64,000 bases of DNA, from the NCBI RefSeq assembly GCF_005145025.1, contig NZ_CP039695.1, positions 2,537,501 through 2,601,500 on the forward strand. The letters are read 5' to 3'. The DNA comes from Novosphingobium sp. EMRT-2 (GTDB lineage: Bacteria > Pseudomonadota > Alphaproteobacteria > Sphingomonadales > Sphingomonadaceae). This document shows, one piece after another, positions 1 through 44,183 of the stretch. Both the position numbers and the translations under genes were made by a program. Position 1 is the stretch's first letter. Every line of letters starts with the position of its first letter. The notes under the pieces were generated by a model. That model ran no database searches and was not told the origin of the DNA. It worked only from the letters and a program-made list of their open reading frames with translations.

Positions 1-982
1 CGGAGCGTCCGCGCCAGCTGTAGCCGGCATAGACGATGCCGTTGCCGGTCCGGCTCAGTGTCGATCCGTCGGTCAGCGACCGCAGCGCGATGCCGGTCTT
101 GAATTCGTCGCTGTCGGCCGTGGCACCGATGGTCATCGTGCCGACGAACCGGCCCTTGCCGGGGGCAGAGGCGCTGACCAGCCATTTGCCGGCCAGGCGC
201 GGGTCCTGCATCCGGGACTTCCACTGTGTCCATTCGGGCGTGTGCAGCGGGGCGACCTTGCGCGTGTAGTCCAGCGCGATCTGGCCCTGCGTCACCGGCG
301 TCGCACCGGGCTTGGTCACGATCGGCGTGGGCTGGCCGAAGACCGCGCCGGGCTCGTCCGTGGCGGGGCGGCGATACTGCACGTCGGCCTGCGAATAGAG
401 CGCGACGTGGAAATCCTGCAGAAGCTTCCATTCGGTGCCCGACCGGCGCCAGGACAGCGGCTGGGCGAAGGCGTGGCAGGTAGCACAGGCGCCGCGCAGG
501 GATTCGCTGGGGATGTTGGTCTCGTCCTGGATGCGATGCTCCACGAGGTACATCACCGGCTTCGCTTCCTCGGGCGCAAGGCCATGACTGGCCGAAAGAT
601 AGCGGACCACCTGACGCGATTCCTCGGGCGTGATCTGCAAGCCGTTCAATTTGACCATGCGCTTGATCGCCTGCGCCCAGCCTTCCGGCGTGGTGCGCAG
701 CCAGGAAATGCGCGAAAGATTGCCCTTGGCATCGGCGGTATGGCACGCGCCGCACTTTTCCTTGGTCAGGCTGTCGGTGACCGGGATGCCTTCCTCGCTC
801 TCCGGCTTGTCCGCCCCACCGGTCATGCCGCCGGCCTGCGCGACGACGGCGGTCGCGGTGCACAGGCCCGCCAACAGCAACGGGCGCAACGAAAAGCGAG
901 CCGTCAGCGCGGCCCGCCACGACGGGCTGGCGGCGGCATCCTGCGCATCGAGTGGACGGGACTCGGTATCCGGGTAGGCCAT
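1..982 (-). CDS. qhpA: Quinohemoprotein amine dehydrogenase alpha subunit, N-terminal part (cut by window edge)
   Basis: Periplasmic dihaem subunit of the CTQ-type amine dehydrogenase, which oxidises primary amines to aldehydes. 327 codons are visible and the frame runs off the left edge. A basic N-terminal stretch is followed by a hydrophobic segment (about residues 35-50), a signal peptide. Two haem c motifs follow, CGACH at 77-81 and CATCH at 166-170, the spacing of the dihaem domain I, and then beta-rich sequence as in domains II-IV. The ATG at 982 has an AGGGGGAT ribosome site upstream. The gamma, beta and radical-SAM maturation genes normally follow and would lie beyond the left edge. 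It is separated from the molybdoenzyme genes by a terminator and has its own upstream box. A plain dihaem cytochrome is the alternative, but the sequence past the haems argues against it. Confidence 0.85.
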   Translation of the reverse strand, partial: MAYPDTESRPLDAQDAAASPSWRAALTARFSLRPLLLAGLCTATAVVAQAGGMTGGADKPESEEGIPVTDSLTKEKCGACHTADAKGNLSRISWLRTTPEGWAQAIKRMVKLNGLQITPEESRQVVRYLSASHGLAPEEAKPVMYLVEHRIQDETNIPSESLRGACATCHAFAQPLSWRRSGTEWKLLQDFHVALYSQADVQYRRPATDEPGAVFGQPTPIVTKPGATPVTQGQIALDYTRKVAPLHTPEWTQWKSRMQDPRLAGKWLVSASAPGKGRFVGTMTIGATADSDEFKTGIALRSLTDGSTLSRTGNGIVYAGYSWRGRS

Positions 983-1047
983 GCTCGCGAAATCCCCCTG
1001 ATTGGACCGTAAGCAGCGCGATTCGAGCGCGGGTCACGGGGATAAGC

Positions 1048-1072
1048 TTGACGGTTGTCCAAGATTGGTCAA
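1048..1072 (-). promoter_or_regulatory. Inverted-repeat box upstream of the qhpA-like gene
   Basis: TTGAC-N15-GTCAA, 65 bp before the start codon. Read toward qhpA the spacer contains TTGGAC. 19 of 25 positions match the box at 6072-6096 upstream of the TTQ amine dehydrogenase operon, with identical arm spacing. TTGAC could also serve as a -35 element. A shared operator or activator site is inference. Confidence 0.6.
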
Positions 1073-1114
1073 CGCCTTTGTTGCGGTGCCGCCAATCTTT
1101 TTTGCAGATGCGAA

Positions 1115-1151
1115 AAAAGGCGTGTGATCCGATTGGAATCACACGCCTTTT
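1115..1151 (-). terminator. Rho-independent terminator after the molybdoenzyme genes
   Basis: A 14-bp perfect stem (1115-1128 pairing with 1138-1151, core GGCGTGTGAT) with a 9-base loop. The stem carries A/T runs at both feet, so it could work in both directions. It sits just past the minus-strand stop at 1194 and before the qhpA promoter region. Confidence 0.8.
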
Positions 1152-1193
1152 GGATGTTGGAAACTGTCCTGGCGGGCGGCGTTCGGGCCGCGA

Positions 1194-3434
1194 TCAGGTC
1201 AACTGCAACGGCAGGGATCGCAGCCGTTTGCCGGTGGCGGCGCGGATGGCGTTGGCGATCGCCGGAATGACCGGCGGCAGCGCCGGTTCGCCCAGCCCGG
1301 TGGGCGGGAAATCGCTCTTCACCCAGGTGATCGCGACATCGCGCGGCACGGCATCGATGCGCAGCAGCGGGAAATCGCCGAAGTTGTCGGCCGTGATCGC
1401 GCCCGCCTCCTGCACCACCGGCTGCCACACCAGCGCCTGCGCGATGCCGTCGATCGCCGCGCCCTGCGACTGGTGTTCGGCATTGAGCGGATTGATGATC
1501 TGGCTGCCGATGTCGCCCGCCATCCAGATCTTGTCGACCTTCACCGACGTTCCGCCCGAGACCGTGACGTCGACGACTTCCGCGAAATAGCCGCGATGGC
1601 TGAAATAGAAGCCGAAGCCGCGCCCCTTGACCGCATCGCCCGCGCCCTTGGCGGGGCCTGTGCGCCCGGTCCAGTTCGCGGCCTTGCACACCGCGTCGAT
1701 CACGCTGCGGGCGCGGCCGGTGTGGAACACCAGCCCCTTGCGCTCGGTCGGCAGTTCGCGCGGTGCGCCCAGCGTCCGGCGCATCAGTTCGGGCAAGTCG
1801 AGGCCGGCGGCTTCCGCCACCTCGTCGAGGAAGCCCTGGTACACGAAGGCCATGGCGTTGGACGTCGGCGCGCGCAGCCAGCCGGTCGGCAGGTTGGTCT
1901 TGAGATAGGTCGCGCCCAGGTGGGCATCGGGCACTACCGGAGCGGGAAATTCGGTGGAGCTCATTTCCGCCGCGCGGATCGGCTTGCCGTCCGCGCCGAA
2001 GGTGATGAAGTGGTCCTTGAACGCGATCAGCGCGCCCTTGGCATCGAGGCCGGCGGTGAAGCGGTGCCAGCCGGCGGGGCGATAGTAATCGTGCCGCAGG
2101 TCGTCCGTGCGGTCCCACAGCAGCTTGACCGGCCGGCCCGGCACGCCCTTCGCCACCTGCGCCGCCAGCACCATGTAGTCGCTCATCAGCCGGCGGCCGA
2201 AACCGCCGCCGATGCGCGTCATGTGGATGGTCATCGCTTCGGGCGCGATGCCGAGCATGGCGGCCACTTCCCTGCGCCCGGCGCCCGGATTCTGCGCGGG
2301 CGCCCACAGCTCCAGCTTGCCGTCCGCCGTCCACAGCGCGGTGCAGTTCTGCGGCTCCAGCGTGGCGTGGGCAAGGAAGGGGTAGGAATAGTCGGCGGTC
2401 ACCGTCTTCGCCGCCCCGGCCAGCGCCTTGTCCGCATCGCCGGCCTTGAACAGATCGGCCTGCGGCGCGGCGCCCAGCGCATCGGCGGCCTGCTTCGCAT
2501 AGCCGGCGGTCGAGAATTGCTTCTGCGTGGCATCGTCCCACGCCACCACCAGCTTTTCGCGGGCCTTGCTGGCTTTCCACCAGCTGTCGGCGACGATCGC
2601 GACGGCATCCTGCTGCCCCGGCGGGACAAGGCCGCTGTTGACCGGCACCACGGCGACGACGCCCGGAATCCCGCGCACCGCCGCGTCGTCGATCCGGGCG
2701 ATGGTGCCGCCGAACGCCGGGCACTTGACCAGCGCGGCGTGGAGCATGCCGGGCAGGTGCGTGTCGATCCCGAACAGGGGTGTGCCCTTGACGATCTTCG
2801 GCGTGTCCACGCCCGGCATCGGCTGACCGATGATGCGGAACGCCTCCGCCGGCTTGAGCGGCACCGTGGCGAGATCGGGCACCGGCATGCCGGCCGCCTC
2901 GCGCGCCAGCGCGGCATAGGGCACGCTGCGCCCGCCGGCCTTGTCGATCACCTTGCCGGCTTCGGTCGAAAGCGCTGACGGGGCGACGCCCCACTGCTTC
3001 GCCGCCGCCGCCACCAGCATGGCGCGCGCGGCCGCACCGGCCTGACGCATGGGAAGCCAGTTGTTCGGCGTCGCGGTGCTGCCGCCGGCGACCTGAAGGC
3101 CATAGCGCTTGTCGTCGGCGTCGGTCTGCTCGATGCGGACCTGGCTCCACGCCACGTCGAGTTCCTCGGCGATCAGCATCGGCAGCATGGTCTTCACGCC
3201 CTGGCCGATCTCGGGATTCTTGGCGCCGATGGTCACGCTGTTGTCCGCGTTGATGCGGATGAAGGCGGTGAGCACGACAGGTTCGCCAGCCACGCCACCG
3301 GCCGCGCCAGTCGCCTGCGCCAGCGCGATCCGGGCGTCGAAGGTCAGCACCGCCCCGCCCGCGAGCGACGCGGCGAGGAACGAGCGGCGGCTCAGCGCCG
3401 CGCCAACGGCTTCCCGATCTTTCACGATGCTCAT
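1194..3434 (-). CDS. Xanthine dehydrogenase-family molybdopterin-binding subunit (isoquinoline 1-oxidoreductase beta / periplasmic aldehyde dehydrogenase type)
   Basis: Large Mo-cofactor subunit, 746 aa. A twin-arginine signal (SRRSFLA, residues 15-21) marks Tat export of the folded enzyme to the periplasm. The C-terminal GEPALPP motif supplies the active-site glutamate (E716) typical of this family. The start ATG overlaps the small-subunit stop (ATGA), so the two are translationally coupled. Members oxidise aldehydes or N-heterocycles; next to two amine dehydrogenases, oxidation of amine-derived aldehydes is the likeliest role, but the substrate is inference. XdhC-like and MobA/MocA-like genes at 9.8-11.3 kb could mature its cofactor. 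Confidence 0.9.
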   Translation of the reverse strand: MSIVKDREAVGAALSRRSFLAASLAGGAVLTFDARIALAQATGAAGGVAGEPVVLTAFIRINADNSVTIGAKNPEIGQGVKTMLPMLIAEELDVAWSQVRIEQTDADDKRYGLQVAGGSTATPNNWLPMRQAGAAARAMLVAAAAKQWGVAPSALSTEAGKVIDKAGGRSVPYAALAREAAGMPVPDLATVPLKPAEAFRIIGQPMPGVDTPKIVKGTPLFGIDTHLPGMLHAALVKCPAFGGTIARIDDAAVRGIPGVVAVVPVNSGLVPPGQQDAVAIVADSWWKASKAREKLVVAWDDATQKQFSTAGYAKQAADALGAAPQADLFKAGDADKALAGAAKTVTADYSYPFLAHATLEPQNCTALWTADGKLELWAPAQNPGAGRREVAAMLGIAPEAMTIHMTRIGGGFGRRLMSDYMVLAAQVAKGVPGRPVKLLWDRTDDLRHDYYRPAGWHRFTAGLDAKGALIAFKDHFITFGADGKPIRAAEMSSTEFPAPVVPDAHLGATYLKTNLPTGWLRAPTSNAMAFVYQGFLDEVAEAAGLDLPELMRRTLGAPRELPTERKGLVFHTGRARSVIDAVCKAANWTGRTGPAKGAGDAVKGRGFGFYFSHRGYFAEVVDVTVSGGTSVKVDKIWMAGDIGSQIINPLNAEHQSQGAAIDGIAQALVWQPVVQEAGAITADNFGDFPLLRIDAVPRDVAITWVKSDFPPTGLGEPALPPVIPAIANAIRAATGKRLRSLPLQLT

Positions 3435-3892
3435 GCCGCCACTCCCGCCGCCTTGCGGATCGCCTTCTGGATGCGCAGGTAGGTGGCGCAACGGCAGATA
3501 TTGCCGCTCATGCCGCCCTCGATGTCCTCGGCCGTCGGCTTGGGCGTCTGCGTCAGCAGCGCGGTGGCGGACATGATCTGACCGGCCTGGCAGTAACCGC
3601 ATTGCGGGACGTCGAGATCGACCCAGGCATCGACCACCTTCTTGCCTACCGGAAGCGAGGCCACGTCCTCGATCGTGGTGATCTGCTTGCCGGCCGCATC
3701 GGCGATCGGCGTCTGGCACGATCGCACGGCGTTCCCGTCCAGCAGCACGGTGCAGGCGCCGCACAGGCCCGCGCCGCAGCCGAACTTGGTGCCGGGCAGG
3801 TTCAGGTCTTCGCGCAAGACCCACAGCAGCGGTTTGTCGGCGTCCGCGTCGACGACGCGCTTCTTGCGGTTGACGGTCAGCGAAATGGCCAT
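3431..3892 (-). CDS. (2Fe-2S)-binding small subunit of the molybdenum hydroxylase
   Basis: 153 aa, the usual length for the IorA/PaoA-type electron-transfer subunit. A plant-ferredoxin-like cluster is formed by C39, C44, C47 and C59 (GCGAGLCGAC). The second, helical [2Fe-2S] domain has C98, C101, C133 and C135 (CGYC...ICRC). It passes electrons from the Mo centre to an external acceptor. There is no own signal peptide, so it is probably co-exported with the Tat-bearing partner. The ATG at 3892 is chosen because family proteins start directly at this beta-strand; upstream in-frame codons are not family-like. Divergent from the tetR gene at 4174. Confidence 0.92.
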   Translation of the reverse strand: MAISLTVNRKKRVVDADADKPLLWVLREDLNLPGTKFGCGAGLCGACTVLLDGNAVRSCQTPIADAAGKQITTIEDVASLPVGKKVVDAWVDLDVPQCGYCQAGQIMSATALLTQTPKPTAEDIEGGMSGNICRCATYLRIQKAIRKAAGVAA

Positions 3893-3983
3893 CGGCAGTC
3901 CTTCATGCTTGATCGCGCGGATATTCTCATCCCGCTCGCCTCTTAGGCCAGGCGCATGGGGATGCGCCATTGCCAAACGGATA

Positions 3984-3998
3984 TTCCGTAACGCGGAA
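3984..3998. promoter_or_regulatory. Palindrome TTCCG-N5-CGGAA in the iorA-like/tetR divergent region
   Basis: Perfect 5-bp arms in the 281-bp region between the molybdoenzyme operon and the TetR gene. The position suits a TetR autoregulatory operator. Assignment to that regulator is inference. Confidence 0.4.
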
Positions 3999-4052
3999 CG
4001 TCGGCAGGATGGAAACCTTTGTTGCCCGGTTTCAAGAATTTGGCTTGAAAAC

Positions 4053-4077
4053 GTCGCGAATATTGGACAGGCATCAA
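4053..4077 (+). promoter_or_regulatory. Degenerate third copy of the amine-dehydrogenase box
   Basis: The core AAT.TTGGACA and the right arm TCAA match the qhpA box; the left arm is poor. 14 of the 19 positions shared by the other two boxes agree. It lies in the same divergent region as the palindrome at 3984. Could be chance. Confidence 0.3.
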
Positions 4078-4173
4078 GTATCCGTCAAGCGTTGTTGCGC
4101 GCGCGGAATTAAAAAGGTTGGGCGGGGGCAGTCGGGCTGGCGAGCCACGTTCAGGAGTGTTAGGCCGGGTGCA

Positions 4174-4830
4174 ATGGCAAGCGATGTCGCCCACATGATA
4201 GCCACGCGTCCGGGAACCTATACGCGCGGCACCGAGACGGTCGACGCCATTCTCAAGGCCGCGTTGACCGTGCTGATAGATGAAGGCGCGGGCGCGTTCA
4301 CAATCCGCCGGATCGCCGCCGAATGCGGGATGAAGGTGGGCAACGTCAGCTACCATTTTCCGCGCAAGGAAATGCTGATCCAGATCCTGCTCGACGAGTT
4401 GCTGGAAAGCTATGACAAGCTGCTGGAGAACCGCGTCCGCCAGCCCGACCTGACGGCGGAGGAGCGGCTGCGCCTGCTGATCGAGATCTGCCTGGACGAC
4501 ATTGCCGGCAAGCGCACCACGCGGTTGTTTACCGAACTGTGGGCGCTGGCCAACCAGAACGAATTCATCGCGGATCGGGTCAGGGCCTTCTATCAGGGGG
4601 TCCACGATTTCATCGGCGAATACGTGGCGCTGCTCAATCCCCGGCTCTCGCCCGATCAGGTGCACACAGTTGCGCTTTATATCAGCGCGTCGATGGAAGG
4701 CTCTACGCCATTCCTCGGATATGAAAAACCGTGGGCCGCGAAGATGATGGCGTTCCGGACCATAGCGGCCCGCGCGCTGGTCGATCTCGCCAGAACGATA
4801 ACGCCGGAACAGATTTCCGGCCTTCGGTAA
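4174..4830 (+). CDS. TetR/AcrR-family transcriptional regulator
   Basis: 218 aa from ATG 4174. An N-terminal helix-turn-helix is visible (AFTIRRIAAECGMKVGNVSYHFPRKEML), followed by an all-helical ligand domain. Divergent from the molybdoenzyme genes and directly upstream of the MFS and amine dehydrogenase genes, so it is the natural local regulator of the amine/aldehyde pathway; the inducer is unknown. No strong ribosome site precedes 4174 (an AGGAG is 17 bp away) and ATG 4195 is possible. Confidence 0.9.
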   Translation: MASDVAHMIATRPGTYTRGTETVDAILKAALTVLIDEGAGAFTIRRIAAECGMKVGNVSYHFPRKEMLIQILLDELLESYDKLLENRVRQPDLTAEERLRLLIEICLDDIAGKRTTRLFTELWALANQNEFIADRVRAFYQGVHDFIGEYVALLNPRLSPDQVHTVALYISASMEGSTPFLGYEKPWAAKMMAFRTIAARALVDLARTITPEQISGLR

Positions 4831-4890
4831 GGCGCGCGAAGCAGCACGCGGCGCGGCAGGGTCCTGACCCCAGGGCTGTGAGTGTGCCGG

Positions 4891-6075
4891 ATGCGGAACA
4901 GGGCGATCATCGGGAGGAGCGTTGGGGCGGCGTCGCTGGCGGCCGCGCTCGGATGCCTGCAACCCGGCATCGATCCCATCTATCTGACGGTGTTGAGCGA
5001 TGCGCGGCCCGTGCCGCTGGAAGCGCACGGCCTGGTCGTGGGCTTCACCCAGGCGGGATCGGCGCTGGGCGCACTGACCGTCTGGCGGCTGGGGCCGGTA
5101 TTGCCCCGGTGGATCGTGCTGGCGGCGGCCGTGCTGGCGCTTCTGGGCAGCGTGGCGGTTGTCGTTGCCGACAGTCTGGCATTGGTGCTGGCGTGCCGCG
5201 CCGGCTATGGGCTGGCCATGGGGGTGATCTATGCCACCACCATGGCCGCCTACGCCGCGCGCCGGCCCAACAAGGCCTATGGTGCGGTCTATCTGACCCA
5301 GCTCATTCTTTCGACTCTGGTTTCGCTGGCCTTGCCCGAACTCATGCTGGCGGCCGGCGCGAAAACCGCGCTGATGGCGATGGCGCTGGTGCCGGCCCTC
5401 GCGCTGGTGGTGCTGGTGCCGTTCGTGCGGTCGGCATCGATGATAGATGGCCCGTCCGGCGTCGTCCCTGGACGGAGCGCGGTGCCGGCCGCCGGCTGGG
5501 CGCTGGCGGCGGCAACCTTCTGGTTCATCTGTTCGACGATGCTGGTGTGGAGCTTCTCGGCCGCGCTGGCCACGCGCGCGGGCATCGCCGATCGCACGAT
5601 CGGGCAAGCCGTGGCGATCGGCTCCGTCGTCGGCGCGCTGACCGCGGCGGCGGTGATGCGCGAGCGGCTGCTGGTGCCGCTGCCGTTCACCGCCCTGCTG
5701 TCGGGGCTGGCGCTTGCATCGCCGGTGGTGCTGACGGTGCCGGGGGCGGACGGCGCCTATGTCGCCTCGATCGTGCTGCTCAACATCGGTTCCACCGCGA
5801 TCATCATCCGCTGCTCCGGGCTGGCGACGGCGACGAGCCGGGATTCGCGCTTTCGCGTGTTCGTGGCCTGCACGCACAGCCTTGGGCTGATCGCCGGGCC
5901 GTTGCTGGGAACGGCGATGATGGCGCTGTTCGGGCGCGACGGGTTGCTGATCGGCGTGGCGCTGGCGCTGACAGGCGGGCTGCTCTCGGTGGGCTGGGCG
6001 GTCCGCGCCGGATTTGCGGGGGTGCCTGCCGCAAGCCCTGAAAAGGGTGGCGTACCCGCCGCACTAGGCGCTTGA
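4891..6075 (+). CDS. MFS transporter
   Basis: 394 aa with about twelve hydrophobic segments and no signal peptide, typical of the major facilitator superfamily. The GTG at 4882 is in frame, but ATG 4891 starts immediately before the first membrane segment. 60 bp after tetR and 118 bp before the amine dehydrogenase operon. Uptake of an amine or export of its oxidation product would fit the context; the sequence does not reveal the substrate. Confidence 0.85.
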   Translation: MRNRAIIGRSVGAASLAAALGCLQPGIDPIYLTVLSDARPVPLEAHGLVVGFTQAGSALGALTVWRLGPVLPRWIVLAAAVLALLGSVAVVVADSLALVLACRAGYGLAMGVIYATTMAAYAARRPNKAYGAVYLTQLILSTLVSLALPELMLAAGAKTALMAMALVPALALVVLVPFVRSASMIDGPSGVVPGRSAVPAAGWALAAATFWFICSTMLVWSFSAALATRAGIADRTIGQAVAIGSVVGALTAAAVMRERLLVPLPFTALLSGLALASPVVLTVPGADGAYVASIVLLNIGSTAIIIRCSGLATATSRDSRFRVFVACTHSLGLIAGPLLGTAMMALFGRDGLLIGVALALTGGLLSVGWAVRAGFAGVPAASPEKGGVPAALGA

Positions 6076-6096
6076 CTAAAACTGGACGAACGTCAA
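6072..6096 (+). promoter_or_regulatory. Inverted-repeat box upstream of the TTQ amine dehydrogenase operon
   Basis: TTGAC-N15-GTCAA with internal TGGAC, 97 bp before the ATG at 6194 and overlapping the MFS stop codon. Same arm spacing and 19/25 identity to the box before the qhpA-like gene. Confidence 0.6.
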
Positions 6097-6193
6097 ACCT
6101 TCATCCGACATCGCTGCGCCGTGCGATCTTGCGGGGGCAAGAGCAGGGCGAGGGCGTCGCGTCGGCCGTCGCAACCCAGGGGGTCTAGGTCAG

Positions 6194-7378
6194 ATGAAAT
6201 CCATTGCCAGCCGCATGCTATCCGCCATCCCGACGCTTGCCGCCTGCCTCGCGCTGTCGGCGATCGACGCGCCGCAGGCCTTGGCCGACACCGCCAATCC
6301 CACGGAGCCCGAAGAATCGGACGTCGCCTCGATCACGCCGCCCAAGCCAGGCTGGATTTTCGTGAACCGCGGTTTCGTATCCCCCGGCACCGCGATCTAC
6401 GACACCGGCAACGGCAAGATGCTGGGTTTGGTGCAGATGGCGGTTCTCGCGGATATGGCGATCGATCCGGCGGGCAAGTTCTACTACGTGGCCGAAACGA
6501 TCTGGAGCAAGGGCAATCGCGGCACGCGGCAGGACATGGTCACGGTCTATGATTCGACGAATCTCAAACTGCAGGCCGAAATCCCGATTCCCGGCCGTCT
6601 GCTGATCGGCGGCCGCAAGCAGGACTTCATCCTGAGCGACGACGGCAAGCTGGGTTTCGTCTATAACTTCAGCCCCGCGTCGTCGGTCAGCGTGGTCGAT
6701 CTGGAAAAGCGCAAGTTCCTGCGCGCGATCGAGCTGCCCGGCTGCGCCAGCCTGATCCCCAATCCCGGCGCCGGCTTCTCCGCGCTCTGCGCCGATGGTT
6801 CGCTGGCCACGGTCACGGCGGGTGCCGCGAAGCCCGCGATCACCCATTCGGCCCCGTTCTTTTCGGCGACCGACGATCCGATCTTCGACAACCTGATCTA
6901 CGACAAGACGAAGCAGCAGGCGGTTTTCCTGTCCTACACCGGCAAGATCTATACCGCGAAGATGGCGGCGGCGCCCACGGTTTCCGAGCCCTTCTCGATC
7001 CAGGTGGCGGCCGGGCTGCGCGCGGGCGACACCAAGCCGCTCGACGTCAACTGGTATCCCGGCGGGGGGCAGCCGATGGCGCTCCACCGCGCGTCCGGCC
7101 ATCTGTTCGTGCTGATGCATCTGGGCGAATACTGGACGCACAAGGCCGGCGGCACGGAAATCTGGGACGTCGATCTCGCGGCGAAGAAAGTGGTGAAGCG
7201 CGTGCCGATCACCGATCCGGCTACCACGATCGAGGTGACGCAGGAAGCCGATCCCAAGCTGATGTATTCCGGCGGCGAAGCGGGAACGGTCCATGTGGTC
7301 GACGTGAAGACCTGGGACGAATCGCTGAAGCTCGACCGGGCCGGCAGCGGCGTGATCACGGTGGTGGAAGCGCGGTGA
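6194..7378 (+). CDS. aauB: Amine dehydrogenase large (beta-propeller) subunit
   Basis: 394 aa, the expected size for the heavy chain of methylamine/aromatic amine dehydrogenase. A cleavable signal peptide (hydrophobic to about residue 31, ALA) sends it to the periplasm. The body is a seven-bladed propeller with repeated beta-blade strands, including the family stretch YYVAETIWSKGNRGTRQDMV. It forms the alpha2beta2 enzyme with the TTQ light subunit at 8622. First gene of a tightly packed operon: the mauE start overlaps its stop (GTGA). The order B-E-D-A-cytochrome without mauF resembles the aromatic amine dehydrogenase (aau) type more than classical mau. Confidence 0.9.
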   Translation: MKSIASRMLSAIPTLAACLALSAIDAPQALADTANPTEPEESDVASITPPKPGWIFVNRGFVSPGTAIYDTGNGKMLGLVQMAVLADMAIDPAGKFYYVAETIWSKGNRGTRQDMVTVYDSTNLKLQAEIPIPGRLLIGGRKQDFILSDDGKLGFVYNFSPASSVSVVDLEKRKFLRAIELPGCASLIPNPGAGFSALCADGSLATVTAGAAKPAITHSAPFFSATDDPIFDNLIYDKTKQQAVFLSYTGKIYTAKMAAAPTVSEPFSIQVAAGLRAGDTKPLDVNWYPGGGQPMALHRASGHLFVLMHLGEYWTHKAGGTEIWDVDLAAKKVVKRVPITDPATTIEVTQEADPKLMYSGGEAGTVHVVDVKTWDESLKLDRAGSGVITVVEAR

Positions 7379-7965
7379 GCGCCCTCGCCGCCGATCTTGC
7401 GGTTTCGGGCCTGGGCATGACGGGCCTGCGCGTGATGGGGCTGGCGGGCGCGTGCGGCGTGGGCCTGGTCTTCGTGCACGCGGGCGCGTCGAAGCTGCTT
7501 CATCGCGATGTGCTGCCCGGCGTGATCGCCAACTACCGGCTGCTTCCCGATGCGTTGGTCGCGCCGGTGGCGGCGGTGCTGCCATGGGGCGAACTGGCGC
7601 TCGGGCTGGCGCTGCTGGCCGGCGGACCGCCCTTCGCCGTGGTGCCCGCGCTGGTCCTGCTGGGGCTGTTCGCTGGGGCGATGGCGGTGAACATCGCGCG
7701 CGGGCGGCGTTCGATCGACTGCGGCTGCGGCCGGTCGCAACTGCGCCAGACGCTGGGCTGGCCGCTGGTGGCGCGCAATATCGTGCTGATGATCCTGGTG
7801 GCGTTGCGCCTGCCGGCCGCGCTGCCGTCCACCGGCCTCGAACTGGCGATTGCCATTGTCGGCGGGGTCAGCCTGTTCGTTCTTTATCTGCTCTTCAACG
7901 CCATTGCCGCGCTGGCTGTCTCGCCTGTCGCGGCCAGAGTCAACGCTGGAATCAAACGGAGGTGA
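7375..7965 (+). CDS. mauE: MauE-like membrane protein (MauE/DoxX family)
   Basis: 196 aa inner-membrane protein with four to five hydrophobic segments and the conserved IDCGCG cysteine motif after the third. MauE is needed with MauD to form the many disulphides of the light subunit in the periplasm. GTG start at 7375 overlaps the large-subunit stop by 4 bp. Its last codons contain the ACGGAGGT ribosome site of mauD. Confidence 0.88.
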   Translation: MSALAADLAVSGLGMTGLRVMGLAGACGVGLVFVHAGASKLLHRDVLPGVIANYRLLPDALVAPVAAVLPWGELALGLALLAGGPPFAVVPALVLLGLFAGAMAVNIARGRRSIDCGCGRSQLRQTLGWPLVARNIVLMILVALRLPAALPSTGLELAIAIVGGVSLFVLYLLFNAIAALAVSPVAARVNAGIKRR

Positions 7966-7969
7966 GCCC

Positions 7970-8572
7970 ATGCTGACGGCGCTTATCGTTTCGCAGGTCC
8001 TTTCGTGGGGCGTGATCCTCGCGCTCGTCGTCGCGATGCTGGCGCTGGCGCGTCAGGTGGGCGTGCTGCACATGCGCGTGGCGCCGGCGGGCGCGCTGAC
8101 CACGGCGGGCGGGCCTTCGGTGGGAGCATCGTCGCCGGCCATTCCTGCGCGGACGCTCGATGGCGCGGCGGTGACCGTGGGCGGTGCCGCCCCCGGATCG
8201 GCGCTACGCTTGCTGATGTTCGTCTCCGCCGCCTGCCCGCTGTGCAAGGGGCTGATCCCGATGGCCAAGTCGTTCGCGCGGGACGAACGCGTCCAGCTGA
8301 TCTTCGTGGGGGACGATGATCCGGCGGTGCAGCGCGGGATGATCGAACAGCACGGAATCGGATCGTACCAGTTCATCAACGGGCCGGACGTGGGGCAGGC
8401 GTTCGAGGTGGGCAAGCTGCCTTACGCGGTGCTGCTCGATGCCGATGGCACGGTGTTGTCCAAGGGGCTGGTCAACAGCCGCGAACACCTGGAGAGCCTG
8501 GTGATCGCGCACGAGATGGGCGTCCGTTCGGTGCAGGACTATATCGGCAGCCTGAAGGCGGAAGTGGCGTGA
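7970..8572 (+). CDS. mauD: Methylamine dehydrogenase accessory protein MauD (thioredoxin-like)
   Basis: 200 aa. An N-terminal membrane anchor (residues 8-27) is followed by a thioredoxin fold with the redox motif CPLC and cis-proline region KLPYAVL. It is thought to guide disulphide formation in the light subunit. ATG 7970 is chosen because GGAGGT ends 5-6 bases before it and the anchor begins at once; the frame is open further upstream inside mauE but lacks a ribosome site. Confidence 0.92.
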   Translation: MLTALIVSQVLSWGVILALVVAMLALARQVGVLHMRVAPAGALTTAGGPSVGASSPAIPARTLDGAAVTVGGAAPGSALRLLMFVSAACPLCKGLIPMAKSFARDERVQLIFVGDDDPAVQRGMIEQHGIGSYQFINGPDVGQAFEVGKLPYAVLLDADGTVLSKGLVNSREHLESLVIAHEMGVRSVQDYIGSLKAEVA

Positions 8573-8621
8573 TGGCTGTGGCGCGGCTTGCCCGCGCGGA
8601 CAATTTCAAGGGGGCATGGTC

Positions 8622-9164
8622 ATGAAGAAGTTCGATGCGGACGCCATGGGCGAAACGCTGCTTCGCCGTTTCGCGGGCGGCACCTCGCGCCGTGGCATCC
8701 TGGCGCGGCTGGGCGCGGCGCTGGTGGCCGCCCCGGTGTTTCCGCTGCTGCCGGTCAGCCGGGCGGAAGCGGCCAAGCCCGACCGGTCGGGCGAAGGCAA
8801 GACCGCTTTCGCCCGCGTGGCGCAGAGCAAGGACAACACCAAGTGCGATTACTGGCGCTATTGCGCGATCGACGGTTCGCTGTGCACCTGCTGCGGCGGC
8901 GGCATCCACACCTGCCCGCCCGGCGCGGAACCTTCGCCCGTCTCTTGGGTGGGCACCTGCGTCAATCCCGATGACGGCAAGTCCTACCTGATCGCCTACC
9001 GCGATTGCTGCGGCAAGTCGTACTGCATGCAGTGCGATTGCAACAACACCGACCGCGAGACGCAGCTCTACGTGCCGCAGCTCAACAACGACGTGATCTG
9101 GTGCTTCGGCACGAGCAGCATGGAATACCACTGCTCCACCGCCGTGCTCGTCGGTCCCGCCTGA
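8622..9164 (+). CDS. aauA: Amine dehydrogenase light subunit (TTQ-bearing)
   Basis: 180 aa. A Tat-type signal (SRRGILA, about residue 22) precedes the cysteine-rich TTQ domain. W109 (PVSWVGTC) and W160 (NDVIWCFG) are the cofactor tryptophans, and D84 (AIDG) and D128 (YRDCCG) the active-site aspartates. With this start the numbering coincides with that used for aromatic amine dehydrogenase (W109, W160, D128), as far as I recall it. ATG 8622 is preferred over ATG 8616 because AAGGGGG lies 7 bp upstream. The residue after the last cysteine, normally the catalytic threonine (T172), is serine here (YHCS). Confidence 0.95.
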   Translation: MKKFDADAMGETLLRRFAGGTSRRGILARLGAALVAAPVFPLLPVSRAEAAKPDRSGEGKTAFARVAQSKDNTKCDYWRYCAIDGSLCTCCGGGIHTCPPGAEPSPVSWVGTCVNPDDGKSYLIAYRDCCGKSYCMQCDCNNTDRETQLYVPQLNNDVIWCFGTSSMEYHCSTAVLVGPA

Positions 9165-9208
9165 CGGGGCGATTGCGCGAAAGGGGTGTGCAGAGGGATA
9201 TTGGCGGC

Positions 9209-9751
9209 ATGGCGTTTCGTTCCTGGCCCGTTTTCTGCCTGGCGCTGATCGCGCTGGTCTGCGCCGTCGGGCGCGCGGACGTGCGCGCCACGCCGGCCCA
9301 GCCCAGTCCGGTCCAGCCCGCTCCGGCGACGGTGATGGTCGATCCGGAACTGGCGCGGTCGGACTATGTCGAGCATTGCGCCGGCTGCCACGGGGTGCAG
9401 GGCAAGTCCGCGCCCGCACCGCTGCCCGAACTGTTCGGCCGCGTCGGCTGGTTCATGTGCACGCCGCAATCGCGCGCCTACCTGCTGCGCCTGCCGAATA
9501 TCGCGCACAGCCGGATCAAGGATAACGCCGAACTGGCAGACATGATGAACTACGTGGTCTTCGTGATCGGCGCGGACAGCGTGCCGCCGGGGACCAGGCC
9601 GTTCACGGGCGCGGAAGTGACGCGCGAACGGCCGCTGGTGATGGATTCGGCCTCGCTGACCGCCGAACGCGCGCGCCATGCCGCCGATGCGATCCGCAAG
9701 TGCCGGGCGCCCGCCTCGCTCGGCCTGCTCTATCCGGGCGAGACGAAGTGA
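9209..9751 (+). CDS. Periplasmic c-type cytochrome of the amine dehydrogenase operon
   Basis: 180 aa with a signal peptide (to about residue 24) and one haem motif CAGCH. The methionine ligand is not obvious; MMNYVVFVIG resembles the usual C-terminal helix of small cytochromes c. Last of the amine dehydrogenase genes, like the small cytochrome that follows the light-subunit gene in aromatic amine dehydrogenase clusters, and a likely electron acceptor from TTQ. Not MauG: only one haem and no peroxidase-like domain. ATG 9209 has AGAGGG 11 bp upstream. Confidence 0.85.
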   Translation: MAFRSWPVFCLALIALVCAVGRADVRATPAQPSPVQPAPATVMVDPELARSDYVEHCAGCHGVQGKSAPAPLPELFGRVGWFMCTPQSRAYLLRLPNIAHSRIKDNAELADMMNYVVFVIGADSVPPGTRPFTGAEVTRERPLVMDSASLTAERARHAADAIRKCRAPASLGLLYPGETK

Positions 9752-9782
9752 CCCGGGCGGGGGAATGCGCTAAGCTGGCCCG

Positions 9783-10784
9783 ATGATCGCGCCGACGCCC
9801 ATCGACATCCTGCGCCTGCTGGCGCGCGGCGCGGCTGACGGCGTGGAGGGCGTGCTGGTGACGCTGACCGGCATTGAAGGCACGTCTTCGCGTGCGATCG
9901 GCACGCAGATGGCGGTGCTGGCCGATGGCCGCCACGCTGGCTCGTTCTCCGGCGGCTGCATCGAGGCGGCGGTGATCGCCGAGGCGCTGGAGGTGCTGGC
10001 GCGCGGCGAGGGGCGGGTGATTCGCTACGGCTCCGGCTCCCCCTATATCGATATCCGCCTGCCTTGCGGCGGGGGCATCGACCTGTTGTTCACGCCCTGC
10101 CGCGATGCGCGATCGATCGTGGCCGTGCTGGGGGCGCTGGCCCGACGCGAACCGATGGCGCTCGCGCTCGGCGTCGCGGGGGCCGCGCCTGCCGGGGCCG
10201 ATGCCCCGGCAGGATGGAGCGCGGACGCGTTCGTGCAGCACTACGTGCCGCCCCTGCGGCTTGTGGCGGTGGGGCAGGGCGAAGACCTTGCTGCGCTCGC
10301 CCGGCTGGCCATGGCGTTCGGCATCGAGGTCGTCGCGCATGCGCCCGAACGCGATCCGTTGATGCGGGAAGCCGCCGGGGCGATGGCGGTGCATCCGATG
10401 GCCTCGCGCACGGCCGAGGTGGCTTTCGCGAGCGATGCGTGGACGGCGATCGTCTTCCTGTTCCACGACCACGACTGGGAAGAGGCCCTTCTGCCGCGCG
10501 CGCTGGCCGCGCCGGCGTTCTATCACGGCGCGATCGGCAGCCGGCGGACGCACCGCGCGCGGGTGGACATGCTGCGCGCGGCGGGCGTGCCGGAATCGCG
10601 GATCGATGCCTTGCGCGGCTCGATCGGCCTGATCCCGTCGACGCGCGATCCGGCGACGCTCGCACTGTCGATCCTGGGCGAGGTGGTACAGGACTATCAG
10701 GCCTGCGCCGGCGGTGCGGAATGGACCGCAGGCGCGACGCGGCTGGTTGCTCGCGCGGAGCCGCCCGTCGTCCCGCGTGGCTGA
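9783..10784 (+). CDS. XdhC/CoxI-family molybdoenzyme maturation protein
   Basis: 333 aa. The N-terminal XdhC/CoxI domain has the motif GSFSGGCIE (about residues 57-65). A C-terminal Rossmann-like domain has YHGAIGSRR. Family proteins bind molybdopterin and insert the sulphurated Mo cofactor into xanthine dehydrogenase-type enzymes. The obvious client here is the molybdoenzyme at 1194-3892. Starts 31 bp after the cytochrome gene and overlaps the next gene by 8 bp. Confidence 0.9.
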   Translation: MIAPTPIDILRLLARGAADGVEGVLVTLTGIEGTSSRAIGTQMAVLADGRHAGSFSGGCIEAAVIAEALEVLARGEGRVIRYGSGSPYIDIRLPCGGGIDLLFTPCRDARSIVAVLGALARREPMALALGVAGAAPAGADAPAGWSADAFVQHYVPPLRLVAVGQGEDLAALARLAMAFGIEVVAHAPERDPLMREAAGAMAVHPMASRTAEVAFASDAWTAIVFLFHDHDWEEALLPRALAAPAFYHGAIGSRRTHRARVDMLRAAGVPESRIDALRGSIGLIPSTRDPATLALSILGEVVQDYQACAGGAEWTAGATRLVARAEPPVVPRG

Positions 10785-43403: not shown

Positions 43404-44183
43404 ATGCGTCATGATCCGGCCAGCGCCGCTGTGGTTGTCATGCTACGTGGCCTCAAAATGTATGGCATGGCGCAAGCCGCTGGTGATCTGATCGAGCAGG
43501 GCGCGCCAGCCTTTGATGCTGCCGTTCCGATCCTCTCACAGCTTCTCAAGGCGGAGATGTCCGAGCGGGAGGTCAGGTCCATTGCTTACCAGATCAAGGC
43601 AGCCCGGTTCCCGGCCTACAAGGATCTGGCAGGCTTCGACTTTGCCGTCAGTGAGGTCAACGAGGCGCTCGTGCGTCAACTTCACCGTGGTGACTTTATG
43701 GATAGCGCCGACAACGTCGTACTGATCGGCGGACCAGGCACCGGCAAAAGCCACATCGCGACGGCTTTGGGCGTCCAGGCGGTTGAGCATCACCGCAAAA
43801 AGATCCGCTTCTTCTCCACCGTCGATCTGGTCAATGCGTTGGAGCAGGAAAAGGCCGCAAACAGAGCGGGCCAGTTGGCCGAGCGTCTGTTGCGCCTCGA
43901 CCTCGTCATCCTTGATGAGCTGGGATATCTACCCTTCAGCCCTTCAGGCGGGGCCATGCTGTTCCATCTGCTCAGCAAACTCTATGAGCGGACCAGCGTT
44001 GTTATCACCACCAACCTGAGCTTCAGCGAGTGGTCCAGTATCTTTGGCGATGCCAAAATGACCACCGCCCTGCTGGATCGCCTCACGCATCATTGCCATA
44101 TCCTTGAAACCGGCAATGACAGCTTCCGCTTCAGAGCCAGTTCCGCCGCCCCAAAATCCAGAAAGGACAAATCACCCGCTTGA
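43404..44183 (+). CDS. istB: IstB-like AAA+ ATPase (outer IS)
   Basis: 259 aa. Walker [10 protein letters not shown], Walker [13 protein letters not shown], sensor-type TTNLSFSEW and C-terminal RLTHHCHI are intact. ATG 43404 overlaps the 3' end of istA by 11 bp. A different subgroup from the nested IS IstB, so the two elements are not recent copies of each other. Now separated from its promoter by the nested insertion. Confidence 0.93.

Follow-up and report, generated by a model that had tools for sequence, protein, structure and literature searches.

The two TTGAC-N15-GTCAA boxes that precede the amine dehydrogenase operons of the window analyzed here (the whole 64-kb stretch of DNA, contig C1:2537501-2601500 of a 4.77-Mb genome) are, judged by comparison of sequences, parts of a real and conserved promoter-operator cassette. 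In the model proposed here, the cassette would be controlled by the TetR-family regulator encoded at 4174, so that a single regulon would comprise a TTQ amine dehydrogenase, a quinohemoprotein amine dehydrogenase, and an aldehyde-oxidase-type enzyme, a reading to which we assign a probability of about 0.86. The motif, its conservation, the one-sided position of its TTGAC, and its statistical link to tetR are established by comparison among genomes. The sequence-only reading had proposed a common operator or promoter class for the two boxes, and the cassette would fit that proposal, as it appears to be both. The elements are arranged in the window as follows.

1-982, minus strand: 5' part of qhpA, alpha subunit of the quinohemoprotein amine dehydrogenase; the operon continues outside the window
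1043-1066, minus strand: putative qhpA operator, one mismatch to the 24-bp pattern
1044-1049, minus strand: -10-like AAGCTT of the qhpA promoter
1048-1072, minus strand: qhpA box, exact TTGAC-N15-GTCAA
1067-1072, minus strand: -35-like TTGACC of the qhpA promoter, position of TTGAC conserved
1101-1114, minus strand: second inverted repeat, TTCGCATCTGCAAA, upstream of the qhpA box
1194-3434, minus strand: molybdopterin-binding subunit of a molybdenum-hydroxylase-type enzyme, labeled iorB
3431-3892, minus strand: [2Fe-2S] subunit of a molybdenum-hydroxylase-type enzyme, labeled iorA
4059-4082, minus strand: putative operator of the iorA/tetR gap, one mismatch to the 24-bp pattern
4060-4065, minus strand: -10-like CAATAT, iorA/tetR gap
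4064-4088, minus strand: third box, iorA/tetR gap, one mismatch to TTGAC-N15-GTCAA
4083-4088, minus strand: -35-like TTGACG, iorA/tetR gap
4174-4830, plus strand: TetR-family regulator, proposed to bind the operator
4882-6075, plus strand: transporter-like protein, the MFS label being a reading only
6072-6077, plus strand: -35-like TTGACT of the aauB promoter
6072-6096, plus strand: aauB box, exact TTGAC-N15-GTCAA, its TTGAC overlapping the stop codon of the 4882-6075 gene
6078-6101, plus strand: putative aauB operator, exact match to the 24-bp pattern
6095-6100, plus strand: -10-like AAACCT of the aauB promoter
6194-7378, plus strand: large subunit of the TTQ amine dehydrogenase, labeled aauB, first gene of the operon
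7375-10784, plus strand: rest of the TTQ cluster (mauE-like, mauD-like, small subunit, ORF, xdhC-like)
8616-9164, plus strand: TTQ small subunit
to 9751, plus strand: further ORF of the TTQ cluster
9783-10784, plus strand: xdhC-like gene of the TTQ cluster

On recount, the qhpA and aauB boxes share 19 of their 25 bases and lie 65 bp (qhpA, start codon at 982) and 97 bp (aauB, start codon at 6194) before the start codons, just as had been claimed from the letters alone. Both boxes are real, but their number in the window is three and not two: the copy at 4064-4088 has its TTGAC on the side away from iorA and is identical to the other two at 15/25 and 16/25 positions. The motif is not frequent genome-wide, the possibility that had been raised against it, with the exact string occurring at two places only, the qhpA and aauB boxes themselves (reversed-pattern control, 4). 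Since the bare string shows no genome-wide enrichment, the notable point is that both copies lie in these two promoters. Matches with one mismatch number 5 in the window (shuffle mean 0.79, with 0 of 100 shuffles reaching 5); genome-wide there are 82 versus 122 in the control, and counting such matches was rejected as uninformative. One of them, at 43636-43660 of the window, consists of letters that recur exactly at several other places in the genome and is therefore probably part of a repeated element unrelated to the boxes.

The operator was delineated by comparative footprinting of 20 loci around relatives of the TetR, from which 39 sites were listed and 36 aligned with their flanks, leaving out an uncertain iorA site of L041, the L048 site (target unknown), and the tetR site of L051. 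In the 36 boxes, conservation is seen in an A-rich patch just upstream, in TTGAC (positions 1-5), and in AAnnYTKGAYRnnYGTCMARnnTT (positions 7-30), and is low beyond that. The operator defined in this manner is a 24-bp repeat, AAnnYTKGAYRnnYRTCMARnnTT, located in the promoter spacer and over the -10, with the center of the true inverted repeat at box position 18.5 and not at 13. Allowing up to two mismatches, the pattern is found at six places in the whole genome versus one for the control, the best three being the boxes described above. A matrix with a threshold of 20 was built from 35 sites of 18 loci (the aauB site of L051 being additionally omitted), the training set including some weak sites with scores of 6.6, 10.9, and 15.3.

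Target genes in relatives were accepted at an identity of at least 48% (AauB, QhpA) or 60% (IorA) with a match beginning within residue 70, and each was scanned from 500 bp upstream to 90 bp inside. In a held-out test on 47 further tetR loci of the genus Novosphingobium, the operator was found before aauB in 36/37 cases (the miss scores 19.0) and before qhpA in 19/19, compared with 13/13 and 11/11 in the training loci. Before iorA it was found in 11/36 held-out and 5/14 training loci, where any iorA gene lying at a distance from the gap operator, as in L045-L047, was scored as a miss because the scan span was fixed at 500 bp upstream; the iorA/tetR copy thus appears to be poorly conserved. Of the 1,201,017 other positions in the 85 scanned loci, only 11 reach a score of 20; ten adjoin tetR, and the eleventh lies beside the transporter gene where a contig ends.

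The operator also precedes qhpA in 19 of 20 qhp loci that are unlinked to tetR; as 18 of these loci were picked by the exact box (3 + 15) and only two by QhpD (L111, L112), the figure is not an unbiased recall and shows instead what those boxes precede, which in all 18 unlinked boxes followed is qhpA. Outside the genus set, 27 loci were scanned out of 52 found, the remaining 25 being mostly genus-set records. These 27 (20 Sphingobium, 2 Sphingomonas, and 5 others, including MAG records) comprise 25 at or above threshold and two at 18.5, and in each of them the aauB or qhpA operator is preceded by TTGAC, the distance being one base shorter in two (by eye). Conservation upstream of orthologous operons, the lack of which the sequence-only reading had named as a refutation, is therefore found, including qhp operons unlinked to tetR and other genera. 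Exact boxes in two order-level relatives, G062 and G074, were set aside as probably due to chance, the one in G062 lying at the start of an ORF that we take to be flgL, beside an ORF that is presumably flgK (by eye). In G009 (L037:13185-14140) the qhp operon appears cut down with the operator kept: the qhpA matches end at residue 167, the end of qhpB follows directly, and a search of that genome for a QhpD match returned none.

The proposal that the TetR at 4174 is the factor acting on the boxes is supported by co-occurrence, by sites beside tetR, and by two tetR-less operons without the operator. A TetR match at E <= 1e-50 is present in 70 of 195 genomes of the genus, and 65 were considered to hold an ortholog (at least 57% identity, including G018, whose assembly divides tetR between two frames), with five genomes whose best match is 43-46% counted as without. 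Copies of the exact box, TTGACNNANNYTKGAYRNNYGTCMA, number 80 and are spread over 55 genus genomes (reversed control, 0); the box is present in 54/65 genomes with the ortholog versus 1/130 without, with a Fisher value of 7.7e-36 that is not to be taken literally because the genomes are related; when the discovery genomes are removed, the counts are 38/47 and 1/130. The exact box is absent from 11 of the 65 tetR genomes, and at least one operator is detected by the matrix in 64/65 tetR loci, the exception, L182 (G102), having one at its unlinked qhpA (L146).

Two TTQ operons were available from genomes without this TetR, G045 and G039 (small subunit 85% and 79%), and neither of the two holds an operator at a score of at least 13. 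Both keep TTGACT-N17-xAxxxT upstream of aauB, which in G045 reads TTGACT-N17-AAGTCT. The corresponding sequence of G039, TTGACTAAAGCGGGCCGGTCGGCAAATCTT, taken from an assembly that is 81% complete, differs from L038 at positions 10, 12, 15, and 22 (by eye); of these, 12, 15, and 22 are conserved operator positions, and the letters of the -35 and -10 are kept.

An alternative would be that the box is the site of another regulator, e.g. an unlinked activator or a QhpR-like protein, with tetR merely traveling along. In its favor, G202, the single genome with the exact box among the 130, carries it before qhpA (operator at L160:9914) and gave no TetR match in a search at E <= 1e-8, a situation that could reflect a lost regulator, an assembly gap, or another factor; a different, amine-inducible regulator is described for Paracoccus-type qhp clusters (PMC7876137); and the second repeat upstream of the qhpA box suggests a further factor. 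We nevertheless regard this alternative as improbable in view of the distribution of the exact box between genomes with and without tetR, the presence of operators beside tetR itself, and the fact that, where this tetR is present in the genome, the box is also found at qhp operons unlinked to it. A site inside the promoter, moreover, suits a repressor, and no qhpR-like gene or HTH regulator was seen among the ORFs scanned, covering part of those around the window genome's own qhp operon (L003).

The TetR itself matches PF00440 with 40.5 bits (cut-off 24) and PF13977 (TetR_C_6) with 38.8 bits (cut-off 27), and is modeled as an all-helical protein with a pLDDT of 88.6, for which the best Foldseek match is 2id3 (TM 0.64 by query length, 24% identity). 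Proteins from two Novosphingobium records share 100% and 99% identity with it, and since the orthologs mostly align from residue 8-12, its start may be the ATG at 4195. Assignment to a named TetR subfamily was rejected, as all 12 NCBIfam families listed fall below cut-off (e.g. BetI, 49.5 vs 201.3; RutR, 21 vs 230). The recognition stretch GNVSYHF is constant in 63/63 covered orthologs; ten paralogs or distant relatives read GN[LV][ST]Y[HY][FY], and different repeats, e.g. TGTC-N4-GACA, are present in several of their gaps.

The internal arrangement of the box bears on how its two arms are to be understood. Around the center at 18.5, pairs 8-29 and 15-22 are complementary in all of 85 distinct held-out sites, 12-25 and 14-23 in 92%, 16-21 in 81%, and 7-30 in 73%, although the matrix threshold itself favors complementary sites; pair 13-24 is complementary in 12% only, since the two halves differ there (TGGAC in one, TTGAC in the other). 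The TGGAC half adjoins the outer TTGAC in aauB sites and is mostly the other half in iorA sites, with the outer TTGAC staying gene-distal in both alike. For a noncircular test of the TTGAC, sites were picked by a symmetrized matrix of positions 7-30 alone: the gene-distal TTGAC is exact in 74/86 held-out sites and present with one mismatch in 83/86, while at the mirror place it is exact in 0/86 and present with one mismatch in 2/86. By this comparison, the left TTGAC has the character of a -35 element locked in one orientation. In 100 sites with exact TTGAC, a 17-bp spacer leads to a hexamer at positions 24-29 with A second in 94 and T last in all 100; it has to be noted that the -10 is not independent evidence, because A25 and T29 are also operator positions, and it would form the weaker half of the promoter claim. 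Just before the -35, at positions -9 to -5, lies an A-rich patch (like ACAAA) with A at -8 in 70/85, at -6 in 74/85, and at -5 in 66/85 held-out sites; it may be an UP-like element or belong to a different site.

These data also bear on a second alternative, in which the whole 25-bp TTGAC-N15-GTCAA is the operator and its TTGAC is not a -35 but a third half-site, e.g. for a second TetR dimer. Pairs 1-25, 3-23, 4-22, and 5-21 are indeed complementary in 87-96% of the 85 held-out sites, and center 13 is the second-best center, scoring 0.468 vs 0.575 at 18.5. The pairs from 6-20 to 12-14 around center 13 are, however, complementary in at most 42%, the TTGAC is never mirrored exactly in the 86 sites, it is shifted by one base relative to the repeat in a few sites (L041, L239, L240), and the two tetR-less operons keep TTGACT but lose the repeat, which together make this alternative quite unlikely. 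With TTGAC one-sided and the better center elsewhere, TTGAC-N15-GTCAA was rejected as a true inverted repeat; of the original description, the shared arms are real, but they read differently, as a -35 on the left and as one half of another inverted repeat on the right. That the two boxes match merely by chance is hardly credible, since the lack of genome-wide enrichment of the bare string (2 places versus 4 in the control) is set against held-out conservation within the genus and outside.

The second inverted repeat is a possible site of another factor. The form TTYGCAnnTGCRAA has five copies in the genome (control 0), including window 1101-1114 and L003:3966-3979, which precedes a TonB receptor gene; the neighbors of the three other own-genome copies showed no common function by eye. 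In a panel of 87 loci, all 18 copies stand before qhpA (11) or aauB (7). The looser TYGCANNTGC is found at 15/49 aauB, 17/48 qhpA, and 0/16 iorA sites (reversed control 0), mostly 19-24 bp before the -35, with two qhpA cases at 41 bp. Genome-wide, the operator core TKGAYRNNYRTCMA was counted 10 times (8 for the control), with four of the copies falling in the present neighborhood. The fourth of these, which reads TTGACACCTGTCCA and lacks the outer AA/TT, is located at L003:4046-4059 (C1:2527046, outside the window), upstream of the TonB receptor gene near the qhp operon. In relatives, 2/15 TonB matches have the exact core and 0/15 reach the threshold of 20 (best 18.4), making the TonB receptor gene a weak candidate target of the operator.

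With regard to the neighboring genes, qhpA is followed beyond the window by qhpD, qhpC, qhpB, a QhpG-like gene, an ABC exporter, and qhpE, with the QhpB and QhpG matches below their equivalog cut-offs. The iorAB operon, which encodes the aldehyde-oxidase-type enzyme, is divergent from tetR, and the 4882-6075 protein gave no Pfam or NCBIfam match. The TTQ dehydrogenase matches the small- and large-subunit domains PF02975 (181.7 bits) and PF06433 (164.7 bits) but misses the methylamine dehydrogenase equivalog cut-offs (163.9 vs 454.45 and 193.9 vs 196.85), so that "aau" is a label. The same genome holds two further TTQ dehydrogenase loci, L116 (G000:C1:3028000-3047900) and L117 (G000:C3:630000-649900), the former with its own divergent tetR (43% identical) and two TGTC/GGTC-N4-GACA-like repeats in the gap; no divergent tetR of that kind was seen at L117.

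In the mechanism that we infer, which comprises direct binding, repression as the sign of control, sigma-70 usage, and the inducer, each box would represent a housekeeping-type promoter, with TTGAC as the -35, a 17-bp spacer, and a -10-like NANNNT, and the 24-bp inverted repeat would sit in the spacer and -10. The TetR (4174-4830) would bind this repeat as a dimer and keep RNA polymerase out; since both the spacer and the -10 would be occupied by a dimer sitting on positions 7-30, repression by polymerase exclusion is the most likely mode. The TetR would in this way repress the TTQ operon, the quinohemoprotein operon, and, more weakly conserved, the aldehyde-oxidase-type operon, and would probably regulate its own gene as well. 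The grouping of the amine dehydrogenases with the aldehyde-oxidase-type enzyme suggests induction by amine or its aldehyde: either compound, the aldehyde being derived from the amine, would cause the repressor to be released, as a result of which amine oxidation and aldehyde disposal would answer one signal.

A TetR-controlled catabolic regulon is of a known kind; no literature on this particular one was recognized by a search whose reach most subscription papers lay outside. PA3973 is described as a TetR-type regulator with a short inverted repeat over a predicted -10 and with autoregulation (PMC9736018). The system described here resembles that account in its TetR-type regulator and the inverted repeat in the target promoter, with autoregulation likely, and differs in that a 24-bp single repeat, recognized from sequence alone, is common to at least two unrelated amine dehydrogenase operons. 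The letters of the RutR site are TTGACCAnnTGGTCAA, with a half-site similar to TTGAC. RutR of E. coli belongs to the TetR family and has a palindrome of about 16 bp (PMC10891134). The present protein differs, with 21 bits against a RutR cut-off of 230, as do its predicted targets, which are amine dehydrogenases and not pyrimidine genes. QhpR is a regulator of the AraC type. The qhpABCDEFGR cluster comes with an n-butylamine-inducible regulator (PMC7876137); qhpA, D, C, B, the QhpG-like gene, the ABC exporter, and qhpE are likewise present here, whereas no qhpR-like gene was found among the ORFs scanned and a tetR outside the operon is proposed instead. In the paralogous tetR-TTQ clusters (L116 in the own genome; L118, L119, L123), tetR and the large-subunit gene likewise point away from each other, and the gap between them contains repeats, but the TetR is 41-43% identical, the repeats are of the TGTC-N4-GACA type (two in tandem in some gaps), and the recognition stretch is another.

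For sphingomonads, it seems somewhat more probable than the contrary that one TetR governs TTQ and unrelated quinohemoprotein (CTQ) enzymes together with an aldehyde-oxidase-type enzyme, and perhaps a TonB receptor, via a standard operator-in-promoter cassette that would also act at unlinked qhp operons, with a second factor at TTYGCAnnTGCRAA just upstream. For two quinone-cofactor amine dehydrogenases of sphingomonads, the model offers a specific candidate regulator together with its operator and a list of targets. It predicts that one signal would induce both amine dehydrogenases, and the operator could serve as an amine- or aldehyde-responsive promoter.
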